A DNA stretch of 64,000 nt from Paracoccaceae bacterium (GTDB lineage Bacteria > Pseudomonadota > Alphaproteobacteria > Rhodobacterales > Rhodobacteraceae), in contig JANSYL010000002.1 of the NCBI GenBank assembly GCA_024742455.1, positions 372,001-436,000 on the forward strand. Direction: 5' to 3'. Both the position numbers and the translations under genes were made by a program. The notes beneath the pieces are model-generated. The model saw only the letters and a program-made list of their open reading frames with translations, was not told the DNA's origin and made no database searches. Positions 30,525 through 33,435 of the stretch are shown in pieces. Numbering within the stretch: position 1 is the stretch's first letter; the number at the start of each line of letters is the position of its first letter.

Positions 30525-31394
30525 ATGGCGGGTGCCTATGATGATCGCGACGGCGCGATCTGGATGGATGGTCAGCTGAAGCCGTGGCGGGACGCCAATG
30601 TGCATATCCTGACCCATGCGATGCATTACGCCTCGGCCGTGTTCGAGGGGGAGCGCGCCTATAACGGCAAGATCTTCGAAAGCCGGAAGCATTCCGAACG
30701 GCTGCTGGCCTCGGGGCGGATGATCGATGTCGACATCCCTTGGACCGTCGACGAGATCGAGGCCGCGAAATACGAGGTGATGAAGGCCAACGGTCTGACC
30801 GATGCCTATGTGCGCGCGGTGGCCTGGCGCGGGTCGGGCGAGGATATGGGCGTCGCGTCCGCCAAGAACCCGGTCCGTCTGGCCATCGCGGCCTGGGAAT
30901 GGGGCGCCTATTACGGCGACGCCAAGATGAAGGGGGCCAAGCTGGATATTTCCCAGTGGAAACGCCCCGCGCCCGACACCATCCCCTGCCATGCCAAGGC
31001 GGCGGGCCTTTACATGATCTGCACCATGTCCAAACACGCCGCCGAGGCGAAGGGATGTTCCGACGCGATGATGTTCGATTATCGCGGCTACGTGGCCGAG
31101 GCGACGGGCGCCAACATCTTCTTCGTGAAGGATGGCGAGGTCCACACACCCAAGCCCGACTGTTTCCTGAACGGCATCACGCGGCAGACCGTGATCGGGA
31201 TGCTGGAGGAACGCCAGGTCAAGGTCCATGAACGCCATATCGAACCGGGCGAACTGGAAGGCTTCGAGCAATGCTGGCTGACCGGCACGGCGGCCGAAGT
31301 CACCCCGGTGGGCCAGATCGGCGACTACAATTTCGAGGTCGGCGCCCTGACCCGCGACATGGCCCAGGCATACGAGGAGAAGGTGCGGGCTTAA
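30525..31394 (+). CDS. ilvE: Branched-chain amino acid aminotransferase
   Basis: IlvE transfers the amino group from glutamate to the branched-chain 2-keto acids, the last step of Val, Leu and Ile synthesis. The 289-residue fold-type IV PLP enzyme has the PLP lysine near residue 160 (PCHAKAAGLY), the HAMHYASAVFEGERAY segment near residue 40, and EATGANIFFVKDGE. It starts after AGGAA at 7 nt. It stands alone, convergent with the HEPN-type gene only 8 bp downstream. Confidence 0.95.
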   Translation: MAGAYDDRDGAIWMDGQLKPWRDANVHILTHAMHYASAVFEGERAYNGKIFESRKHSERLLASGRMIDVDIPWTVDEIEAAKYEVMKANGLTDAYVRAVAWRGSGEDMGVASAKNPVRLAIAAWEWGAYYGDAKMKGAKLDISQWKRPAPDTIPCHAKAAGLYMICTMSKHAAEAKGCSDAMMFDYRGYVAEATGANIFFVKDGEVHTPKPDCFLNGITRQTVIGMLEERQVKVHERHIEPGELEGFEQCWLTGTAAEVTPVGQIGDYNFEVGALTRDMAQAYEEKVRA

Positions 31395-31402
31395 GCTGCG
31401 GC

Positions 31403-31876
31403 TTAGTTCCGCGTCTTCATCGTCGCCCACGCTGCGAAGGCTCGGCGATCCTTGACCGAAGTCTTCCGAAAGGCACGAATGGCGTCTTCAGCAGCATCAA
31501 TCGCGCCTTCCACGTCACTTAGCGTGAAGATCGCCGAAGGATCGTAATCAGCCCGGTGGCGGTCGTCCTGAAGATCGACGAACAGGTTCCCGAAGTCTTC
31601 TATGTCCTTCGGGAACTTGGCCATGACGCTGCGACTACGGCACTGGCCCTTCGCGAAGCCGTGATCGACTGACCGATAGGCCTGCCGCCAGGCGGGAAGG
31701 CTGCGGTCGGACCCCGATGTTCCGATCATCAAGTCCGCCACTGTGCGGCAGATTTCCTGAAACACAGCATAGTATGCCGTGCTTACGGCGCGTTTCAGAT
31801 CGGCCTGCCGCGGGCGGCGCGATGAACGCGCCCGGGTCAACCGACGTGCAGTTGCGATCAGATCAAGCGGCTGCAG
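31403..31876 (-). CDS. HEPN-fold protein, probable CTG start
   Basis: From CTG at 31876 the product is 157 residues. The helix LKRAVSTAYYAVFQEIC (about residues 28-45) is typical of HEPN proteins, and LQDDRHRADYDPS near residue 110 sits where HEPN nucleases have R-x4-6-H. No histidine is at that place here (RHRADYD), so RNase activity is uncertain. CTG is chosen over TTG at 31840 because GAGG lies 6 nt before it and the added residues QPLDLIATARRL continue the family's first helix. The start overlaps the end of the upstream small gene by 14 bp, a coupled pair. G+C is about 55% in a hand-counted 60-base sample, below its neighbours. Confidence 0.78.
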   Translation of the reverse strand: MQPLDLIATARRLTRARSSRRPRQADLKRAVSTAYYAVFQEICRTVADLMIGTSGSDRSLPAWRQAYRSVDHGFAKGQCRSRSVMAKFPKDIEDFGNLFVDLQDDRHRADYDPSAIFTLSDVEGAIDAAEDAIRAFRKTSVKDRRAFAAWATMKTRN

Positions 31877-32153
31877 CGCGATCCTCTTTCACTGTTGCAA
31901 AACTGAACACGGGGAAATCGTCGACGGCAATGCGTTCGAGCGGCTCTCTCAGATGGCGTGCAAGCCCTCGTACCGCTTTCGGATCAAGCCGGTCACCGTC
32001 GATCTCGAACACGATACGGACACGCAAAAGCGGATCGCCATCGTGGTCCAGATCATATGCCACATCTACGCGATCCACACGCGCAGGCGCCAGCTGAGCC
32101 TCCACGACCTTCCTGATCGTCTCGATGATGTTGGCGTCGGATATACGTTCCAT
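31863..32153 (-). CDS. Small protein paired with the HEPN gene, unknown family
   Basis: The 96-residue protein (from ATG at 32153, MERISDANIIETIRK) has an N-terminal helix, a beta-rich middle with DRVDVAYDLDHDGDP and VRIVFEIDGDRLDP, and a C-terminal FPVFSFAT. The frame is open to 32204, but that part has no start supported by a ribosome site. No family is recognised: it lacks the GSxxxG-DxD motif of MNT antitoxins. It is translationally coupled to the HEPN gene and is a candidate antitoxin or regulator. There is no clear SD; TATACT lies 7 nt before the ATG, so a leaderless mRNA is possible. Confidence 0.72.
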   Translation of the reverse strand: MERISDANIIETIRKVVEAQLAPARVDRVDVAYDLDHDGDPLLRVRIVFEIDGDRLDPKAVRGLARHLREPLERIAVDDFPVFSFATVKEDRAAAA

Positions 32154-32159
32154 AATACA

Positions 32160-32165
32160 AGTATA
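32160..32165 (-). promoter_or_regulatory. Possible -10 element of the HEPN pair
   Basis: On the minus strand TATACT (within TATATACT) lies 6 nt before the ATG at 32153. That distance would put the transcription start on or next to the A of the start codon, giving a leaderless message, in line with the absence of a Shine-Dalgarno sequence. The matching -35 region (CACAGA at 17 nt) is poor, so an activator or a weak promoter is implied. Confidence 0.4.
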
Positions 32166-32205
32166 TAAAGCTTCGTTGCGTTTCTGTGAATCCCCGTCGA
32201 TCACA

Positions 32206-32253: not shown

Positions 32254-32592
32254 ATGACGTTTCAAAGCCCCGCCTTCGGCGCCGCCAAAGCCCATCCCGT
32301 AGCCTTCGACCGGCACGAACTCAGCGTGATCCTCACGCTGTACGGGCGGATGGTGGCGGCGGGGGAATGGCGGGATTACGGCATCTCGCATCTGAGCGAC
32401 GTGGCGGTGTTCTCGGTGTTCCGCCGCACGGCTGAAAACCCGATCTACCGGGTCGAGAAACGGCCAAAGTTGCGCGACCGGCAGGGGCAATATGCTGTGA
32501 TCGGCATGGACGGCCGCATCCTGAAACGCGGCCATGACCTGCGGACCGTGCTCAGGGTGCTCGAACGCAAGCTGATCCGCGCCGTCGAGTGA
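32254..32592 (+). CDS. DUF2794 family protein
   Basis: The 112-residue soluble protein has the DUF2794 pattern in full: FDRHELSVILTLYGRMVAAG, EWRDYGISHLSDVAVFSVFRR, YRVEKRPKLRDRQGQYAVIG and GRILKRGHDLRTVLRVLERK. The family is alphaproteobacterial and of unknown role. ATG at 32254 has no ribosome site; a promoter with TTGACG at 32219 would give a nearly leaderless mRNA. It is convergent with the NlpC/P60 gene, separated by 0 bp. Confidence 0.88.
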   Translation: MTFQSPAFGAAKAHPVAFDRHELSVILTLYGRMVAAGEWRDYGISHLSDVAVFSVFRRTAENPIYRVEKRPKLRDRQGQYAVIGMDGRILKRGHDLRTVLRVLERKLIRAVE

Positions 32593-33435
32593 TCAGCGCC
32601 CGATCTGCACCCGTTTGCGCGCGGTGATCGGCCCGAATTCCCGGTCGGCGATCCGCGCCCGCGCCTCGGCCAGCGGTTCATTGGCCACCGCCATGTGATG
32701 GGCATTGGCATGCAGCAGCATGGTCTCGTTCGCCATCATCCCGACATGGCCTTCCCAGAACACCAGATCATTGCGCTGCAGCACGTCCTCCGGCCCCAGA
32801 AATTCGCCCAGGCTGTCCTCCTGCTGGTCGCTGTCGCGGGGGCAGTCCACGCCGCAGGCCAGAAACGCCATCTGCACCAGTCCCGAACAATCCAGCCCCC
32901 AGCGGCTGCTGCCCCCCCACAGATAGGGCGTGCCGAGGAACAGGTCGGCCACCCCCAGCGGGTCGGCGAAGGTCGCGCGGACGGGCATTGCATGCTGCGC
33001 GGGGATGAAATGCCCGGTGGAAATGCGGTGATACCCGTTGCGTTCCTCCCCCGTGACCGTGACGCGCGCGCCGAAGAACAAAGACACGTCGGGCGGCGCC
33101 TTGAAATCGGGCCGGGGATAGAGATGGGTGGCCGGGGCGGTGATCCAGTGGGTGGCCACCTCGGCCGGCGCCAGCGCGCCCGCGGCCAGATACCCCACAT
33201 AGCCGTCCTTTTCGCATTGGCCGAAGACCAGCCCGTCTTCCTCGTCCAGCACCAGGAACCGTTCTCCGAACAAAAGCTGCGTGGTCCGGTTGCCGCGCGG
33301 CGTGTCGGTCAGGTTCACGATGGGTTGCTGCACCGACATCCAGCGGCCTTCGACGAAGCGCTCGGCCTCGGCCACCCCCTCGAGCGAGACATGGGCCACC
33401 CGGCCATTGTTGGGCGTGACACGCGGATCGGTCAT
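32593..33435 (-). CDS. NlpC/P60-family peptidase with SH3 domain
   Basis: The 280-residue protein has bacterial SH3-type repeats (residues about 25-140) and a C-terminal NlpC/P60 (C40) domain with catalytic Cys in YLWGGSSRWGLDCSGLVQMAF near residue 178 and His in DLVFWEGHVGMM. Such enzymes cut gamma-D-glutamyl-diaminopimelate bonds in muropeptides. There is no signal peptide, which suggests cytosolic muropeptide recycling, and it overlaps the aminopeptidase gene upstream by 4 bp, consistent with joint peptide breakdown. Confidence 0.93.
   Translation of the reverse strand: MTDPRVTPNNGRVAHVSLEGVAEAERFVEGRWMSVQQPIVNLTDTPRGNRTTQLLFGERFLVLDEEDGLVFGQCEKDGYVGYLAAGALAPAEVATHWITAPATHLYPRPDFKAPPDVSLFFGARVTVTGEERNGYHRISTGHFIPAQHAMPVRATFADPLGVADLFLGTPYLWGGSSRWGLDCSGLVQMAFLACGVDCPRDSDQQEDSLGEFLGPEDVLQRNDLVFWEGHVGMMANETMLLHANAHHMAVANEPLAEARARIADREFGPITARKRVQIGR

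Follow-up and report, generated by a model that had tools for sequence, protein, structure and literature searches.

An AF0298-like HEPN protein and an acidic partner of unnamed family form a widely conserved gene pair, putatively of toxin-antitoxin type

Two genes on the minus strand of a 64,000-nucleotide stretch of DNA from a Paracoccaceae bacterium (the whole of which is referred to here as the window) belong to a widely conserved two-gene module. The second gene encodes a HEPN protein and the first a small acidic partner, whose family is unnamed in the databases that we searched. Judged from sequence comparisons, the pair is probably a two-gene module of the toxin-antitoxin type, made up of a putative HEPN RNase and a putative acidic, KH-like antitoxin. 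Little is understood of HEPN proteins that lack the standard catalytic His, and the pair provides a small test case for them. The partner carries no nucleotidylation motif, so that a putative His72/Arg106 active site and a putative new form of HEPN RNase restraint are both directly testable. Profiles are now at hand for two protein families that are labelled hypothetical in annotated plasmid records, and the HEPN genes include a natural set that seemingly starts at CTG.

Organization of the locus

The features of the locus are collected in Table 1.

Table 1. Features of the HEPN/partner locus, in positions of the window.
Feature	Position	Strand	Remarks
HEPN protein gene (AF0298-like HEPN-T)	31403..31876	minus	157 aa from CTG 31876
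Partner gene, candidate antitoxin	31863..32153	minus	Acidic protein of 96 aa; type II KH-like topology predicted
14-nt overlap between the end of the partner gene and the start of HEPN	31863..31876	minus	CTG codon at 31876-31874
ilvE	30525..31394	plus	Convergent with the HEPN gene
DUF2794 gene	32254..32592	plus	Divergent from the HEPN/partner pair
Promoter-like TTCACA-N17-TATATA	32162..32190	minus	8 nt ahead of the partner ATG; weak

The stop codons of ilvE and of the HEPN gene are separated by 8 nt (31395-31402). The partner frame begins with an ATG at 32153, encodes 96 aa and has a stop that ends at 31863. The HEPN frame has its stop at 31403 and extends back, without interruption, as far as a TGA that lies a short way ahead of the CTG at 31876; the first ATG, GTG or TTG start in this frame is the TTG at 31840, which would give a protein of 145 aa. 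HEPN homologues start at the same place as CTG 31876 (consensus MxPxDLI), and initiation at TTG 31840 would delete most of predicted helix 1 (residues 3-14, counted from the CTG). On the strength of the homologue start position and of this helix, the true HEPN start is more likely to be CTG 31876, giving 157 aa and the 14-nt overlap. Both frames had been recognised in an earlier, sequence-only reading of the window, which saw a later HEPN start. The two motifs reported there, AVSTAYYAVF and RHRADYD, are both present in the HEPN protein.

The G+C content of the pair is 0.594 (59.4%) against 0.675 (67.5%) for the 64-kb window, among the lowest 0.3% of 751-nt stretches in the window (standard deviation 0.031). 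Its neighbours are also under the window mean, at 0.631 for ilvE and 0.643 for the DUF2794 gene. Hand counts of 33 G+C in 60 nt (31441-31500) and 40 in 60 (33061-33120) had been said to fit acquisition of the pair; both counts are correct, 33 or fewer G+C occurs in 3.8% of 60-nt stretches, and the low G+C content of the pair as a whole fits acquisition.

Of 81 regions preceding a partner gene, 8 contain the sequence GATTCAC (32186-32192 in the window), which occurs in 0.5% of random stretches. It also lies ahead of the partner at loci L033, L034, L038, L044, L056 and L108, while the copy at L054 is coding sequence. A -10-like hexamer follows GATTCAC by 16-18 nt in 6 of the 81 regions. Because the window's own hexamer, TATATA, misses the -10-like pattern by its last base, and because a promoter and terminator scan that was stricter than the GATTCAC pattern found nothing, we regard the promoter-like element upstream of the partner as a weak candidate. 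No convincing pair of flanking direct repeats was found, and Rfam gave no match at gathering score.

The HEPN and partner genes are linked across genomes

An alignment-guided pattern scan of the genome collection returned at least 471 relatives among at least 595 candidate stretches. We fetched 82 loci by HEPN sequence, comprising 80 kept loci and 2 viral contigs; some of the 80 come from genomes that were also part of the search of the family described below (L045 and L007, for example, carry the same gene). A partner homologue was present within 100 nt upstream of the HEPN start in 81 of the 82 loci, L095 being the exception, and the linkage that had been proposed for the window thus holds in other genomes. 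According to the phylum in the record titles, the 82 loci represent Pseudomonadota (71), Chloroflexota (5), Rhodothermota (2), Cyanobacteriota (1) and Acidobacteriota (1), with 2 unlabelled, although many are metagenome bins and single phylum labels may be wrong.

Both profiles were built from linked pairs. Since the partner profile was therefore derived from HEPN-linked partners, the reverse search was also carried out. In 289 genomes of the class, the partner profile matched 29 places in 20 genomes. HEPN lies directly downstream at 19 of these places, and 3 more end at contig ends (L130, L133 and L145). The other seven (L121, L123, L137, L138, L140, L143 and L144) have no HEPN directly downstream despite room for it, or show an odd order. 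The HEPN profile gave matches in 23 of the same 289 genomes. At 26 of the 29 loci L146-L174 the partner is directly upstream of HEPN, with some weak scores (E about 1e-3); L155 starts at a contig end, L173 has no partner and L164 is in odd order. By one profile, 16 of 134 HEPN genes were without a partner; in several of these cases another profile did detect the partner, or its place falls off the contig.

The distances among HEPN proteins correlate with those among partners (r 0.54, n=66; the highest value among 2000 permutations was 0.19), a result that any two genes inherited together would give and that does not demonstrate binding.

At L143, the HEPN-less partner (1495-1785) is followed by an ORF of 175 aa (2009-2536) that resembles, by eye, a SocA/DUF4065-type antitoxin.

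The HEPN protein is AF0298-like and retains an invariant His outside the usual motif

The window HEPN protein scores 13.8 bits against Pfam PF05168, under the 22-bit gathering cut-off, and 34 of 70 aligned HEPN sequences match this family at E up to 1 (best, 5e-5). No convincing match to the window protein was found in NCBIfam, PADLOC or PHROGs except for phrog_5176, a family of unknown function (2.7e-4); PADLOC HEPN_IX matches 10 of the 70 aligned sequences, with a best value of 1.7e-4. The HEPN sequence profile finds PDB entry 2hsb at E 5.3e-6. An AlphaFold2 model built with the 70 aligned sequences (pLDDT 96.3) superimposes on 2hsb with a VIA Z score of 11.5 and an rmsd of 3.4 over 116 residues, and also scores against the sacsin HEPN domain (9.6), MntA-HepT (about 8) and AbiV (6.2). 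Nine of the best 13 VIA rows are titled HEPN or HEPN-MNT, and two more, 2q00 and 1wwp, are classed as HEPN in a passage of PMC3710099. Foldseek was weak on the same model, its best match again being 2hsb (E 0.1). In the predicted structure the HEPN fold is confirmed, and the closest group is the AF0298-like HEPN-T proteins (PF05168, 2hsb). The window protein differs from 2hsb in being about 30 residues longer, with a further C-terminal helix, and from AF0298 HEPN-T in falling below the Pfam cut-off and having a constant partner that is not of the MNT type.

Five residues (S32, R68, H72, R106 and D110) are invariant in all 70 aligned sequences. In the model, R106 is near the end of helix 3 (90-111), D110 occupies the usual place of the His, and H72 is located between helices 2 (24-50) and 3. 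The canonical Rx4HxY motif occurs in none of 83 HEPN proteins. A passage of PMC3710099 describes AF0298-like HEPN-T and AbiV as being without the His of Rx4-6H, states that Asp may replace the motif His in HEPN-T, and proposes that a second conserved His, contributed by the insert that joins helix 2 to helix 3, may provide an alternative active site. The window protein shares two features with AF0298-like HEPN-T, an Asp standing where the motif His would be and the second His between helices 2 and 3. The sequence-only reading had noted that the catalytic His was missing, which is true of the Rx4-6H position, where Asp110 stands, but not of the protein as a whole, which has the invariant H72. 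It had concluded that any effect may work by another mechanism; this has to be corrected, in that H72 may substitute, as in the AF0298-like HEPN-T and AbiV proteins of that passage. Because H72 is invariant and an alternative active site of this kind has been described, the HEPN protein is still likely, judging from its conserved residues, to be a catalytic RNase despite the missing His.

AbiV, a phage resistance protein of Lactococcus that the PDB title of 9bj6 describes as an RNase in a two-component antiphage system, likewise has the alternative His and no standard His (as given in the same part of PMC3710099), but its fold match to the window HEPN is weak (Z 6.2, rmsd 4.4).

The partner has a predicted KH-like topology and no recognised family

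The window partner had no match in Pfam and no convincing match in NCBIfam, PADLOC or PHROGs, and its relatives also gave no convincing family match, in keeping with the first description of it as a protein of no recognised family. An AlphaFold2 model from 66 aligned sequences (pLDDT 92.9) consists of a helix, two strands, a short helix, another helix, a strand and a last helix, in this order. The order alpha-beta-beta-alpha-alpha-beta is that of the type II KH fold. The best VIA rows were ribosomal protein S3 (Z 8.0-8.8) and RbfA (8.5 and 7.6), scores barely above the 7-8 that models lacking any clear match usually reach. There was no Foldseek match under E 0.001, and the Foldseek list was headed by other alpha-beta folds, among them OsmC and acyl-CoA synthetase C-terminal domains. 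The topology of the partner is thus predicted to be type II KH-like, with scores little over background. GxxG is found within residues 46-75 in 10 of 83 partners and is absent from the window partner; RbfA itself is not known to carry GxxG.

The likeness to RbfA and to the KH type II part of S3 lies in the order of strands and helices and in a structural match that is little over background. The partner differs from both in being acidic and in having no profile link to RbfA, with an hhalign probability of 0.4% in a rough test that lacked a positive control. We did not accept homology with RbfA or RimP, for which the sequence matches were weak: RimP matched the window partner at E 0.033 and 2 of 66 members of the family (best, 0.0029), and RBFA matched 2 of 66 members (best, 0.028).

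A degenerate MNT protein was also considered for the partner and was unsupported by motif or by rough profile comparison. The GSx10DxD motif occurs in none of 83 partners, and comparison with PF01909 gave an hhalign probability below 1%, in a rough test that used 7 fragments, one of them (L231) wrongly cut, and no positive control. The motif result supports the original statement that the partner is not MNT-like. MNT is absent from the VIA list of the partner, an absence that excludes nothing, and the partner may still be a remote relative of MNT.

HEPN toxins preceded by their antitoxin gene have been described (in passages of PMC3710099 and PMC7641770), and our pair shares with the HEPN-MNT pairs (HepT-MntA, type VII toxin-antitoxin) the arrangement of two small genes, the (here putative) antitoxin gene first and HEPN second. 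Both HEPN-MNT motifs are absent, the HEPN proteins having no Rx4HxY (0/83) and the partners no GSx10DxD (0/83). PF05168-type HEPN proteins with MNT form the Class II set in a passage of PMC7641770, according to which it needs further study whether these pairs are toxin-antitoxin systems. Among the matches listed by open-access literature searches, judged by title and the start of the abstract, we found no description of the present HEPN/partner pair.

HEPN start codons within the partner gene

The HEPN frame was in register with the 14-nt overlap in 61 of the 82 loci, and in 49 of these 61 an NTG codon stands at the start of the overlap (CTG 19, ATG 15, TTG 13 and GTG 2). Twelve of the 19 CTG loci are without any upstream ATG, GTG or TTG in the open frame, and 14 are without any such codon in the 36 nt to either side. 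SD-like words rich in purines stand ahead of 12 of the 19 CTG codons, 7 of the 13 TTG, both of the GTG and 3 of the 15 ATG. The partner starts, as chosen by script, were ATG in 62 cases, GTG in 18 and TTG in 2. With a HEPN start located within the last stretch of the partner gene, and with CTG or TTG, both weak codons, frequently in that position, coupled translation would be expected, with less HEPN than partner; a weak start reached by re-initiation would hold HEPN below its partner.

Distribution on chromosomes and plasmids, and search for phage relatives

The pair proved to be patchy and partly plasmid-borne: 22 of 248 genomes of the family carry HEPN, and the module was present in 30 plasmid records, of which 27 are from Rhizobium and 20 are typed conjugative. 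It is multi-copy in some genomes, with 10 HEPN matches in genome G101 and five partner matches in genome G517. Repeated copies of the module, or of a lone partner, were observed at L070, L105 and L144.

Four annotated plasmid regions were examined. In two of them, both from Rhizobium, the module is near repC, ParB-type and ProQ/FinO genes, and in one of the two also near a gene for an AbiEi-type antitoxin; in an Acidisoma plasmid region it is near replication and ParA genes, and in another Rhizobium region it lies amid hemN, a transposase and other genes. On a plasmid of Rhizobium ruizarguesonis (L251, 5710-6564), the module has repC and an AbiEi-type antitoxin gene on one side and a ParB-family gene on the other. 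A plasmid search with the window partner alone gave no match, yet the Rhizobium plasmids do carry a diverged partner, which was located by position and profile. Single-sequence searches therefore miss the partner.

On chromosomes the nearest neighbours look ordinary: a scan of 78 out of 186 flanking ORFs gave 76 matched families, of which the best 25 were mostly household ones, with one phage terminase. No defence gene stood out among the matches listed for these 78 ORFs. A search for phage origin gave no match at E 0.01 in 50,697 phage records, and IMG/VR held 2 relatives.

A putative toxin-antitoxin type module

The pair has the genomic features of type II toxin-antitoxin systems, being composed of two small, co-directional and touching genes that are linked (81/82) and patchily distributed (22/248). 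The net charge is positive for HEPN in 81 of 82 cases and negative for the partner in 72 of 82, with median pI values of 9.9 and 5.0, respectively. For such a module we infer toxicity, RNase activity, binding, neutralisation, coupling and which of the proteins is the toxin. The acidic KH-like partner would be made first and would bind HEPN. HEPN itself would be an RNase of basic charge that works without metal, belonging to the AF0298-like HEPN-T proteins, with an active site formed by Arg106, at the end of helix 3, and His72, in the insert that joins helix 2 to helix 3. The HEPN protein would be made by translational coupling, in a smaller amount than the partner, and the partner would mask the RNA-binding or active site of HEPN without nucleotidylation.

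Damaged loci bear on the assignment of the toxin. Among 134 HEPN genes, those at 6 loci are broken next to an intact partner, and the reverse was found in none. At L018, L023, L039, L110 and L120 the HEPN gene is split over two frames, and at L134 it has an internal TGA; at L128 and L131 both genes are damaged. The chance that all six breaks fall in HEPN is about 0.06 given 157 and 95 codons, so this 6-to-0 difference is weak, and some of the breaks may be assembly errors; as evidence for a HEPN toxin the asymmetry is suggestive, not strong.

Most RNA-binding proteins are not acidic, and the median pI of 5.0 thus weighs against the partner acting in an RNA-targeting complex, in which the KH-like protein would bring HEPN to an RNA (for example ribosomal or phage RNA) that HEPN would then cut, as a defence or stress effector. 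We consider such a complex unlikely. It would suit the resemblance of the predicted partner topology to the KH domain of S3 and to RbfA, the co-variation of the two families, and the frequency of HEPN RNases in defence systems (noted in a passage of PMC3710099), but the window partner has no GxxG, partners without HEPN occur, and no defence gene is prominent among the families listed for the 78 flanking ORFs.

A reading in which HEPN binds RNA or acts as a scaffold without being catalytic, as proposed for MtlR in a passage of PMC3710099, and the pair is a non-toxic regulatory or RNA-processing unit, is rather improbable. Such a protein could do without the canonical Rx4HxY (0/83) and would be at home in chromosomal pairs that lie mostly amid ordinary genes, but it leaves R68, H72, R106 and D110, invariant in 70 of 70 sequences, to be accounted for, and the sparse distribution and the plasmid carriage oppose a housekeeping role. 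Reversed roles, with a toxic small partner restrained by HEPN, would agree with the faster divergence of the partner (mean column identity 29%, against 44% for HEPN), but are very improbable indeed, in that HEPN-less partners and intact partners beside interrupted HEPN would leave free toxin, and gene order and charge point the opposite way.

Beyond the toxin-antitoxin reading of the pair itself, we suggest tentatively that the module could represent a widespread, undescribed toxin-antitoxin class, in which a KH-fold protein that is not a nucleotidyltransferase would control an AF0298-type HEPN RNase, with CUG-type re-initiation inside the antitoxin gene and, in one family, a preference for the exact ilvE 3' end.

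The ilvE 3' end as a site

HEPN faces ilvE in 10 loci (the window, L002, L005, L008, L013, L017, L021, L033, L034 and L038), where the stop codons range from a 2-nt overlap to 8 nt apart. In 29 other genomes, whose ilvE loci (L255-L283) were fetched out of 116 genomes with an ilvE match, neither HEPN nor partner was present within about 1.5 kb downstream of ilvE. The 10 ilvE-side proteins do not form a single clade on a tree built from 37 HEPN proteins (p 0.00012 by AU test), so that one spot is shared by HEPN proteins that come from separate parts of the family. Placement at ilvE requires 6 changes on this tree, at least 2 of them forced by well supported branches. Either HEPN arrived at the ilvE spot on at least two occasions, or the spot is an ancient one from which HEPN repeatedly moved away or was lost.

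A housekeeping gene tied to ilvE, which the sequence-only reading had named as the case that would speak against its proposal, was rejected: with HEPN in 22 of 248 family genomes, 7 of the 22 have it at ilvE, and none of the 29 other ilvE loci does. The two further outcomes named there as refuting, a partner of known family and a lack of linkage elsewhere, did not arise either.

At L187, the gap between ilvE and the DUF2794 gene is of near-equal length (860 nt) and holds an unrelated ORF of 220 aa (1963-2625) that appears, by eye, to be rhodanese-like.
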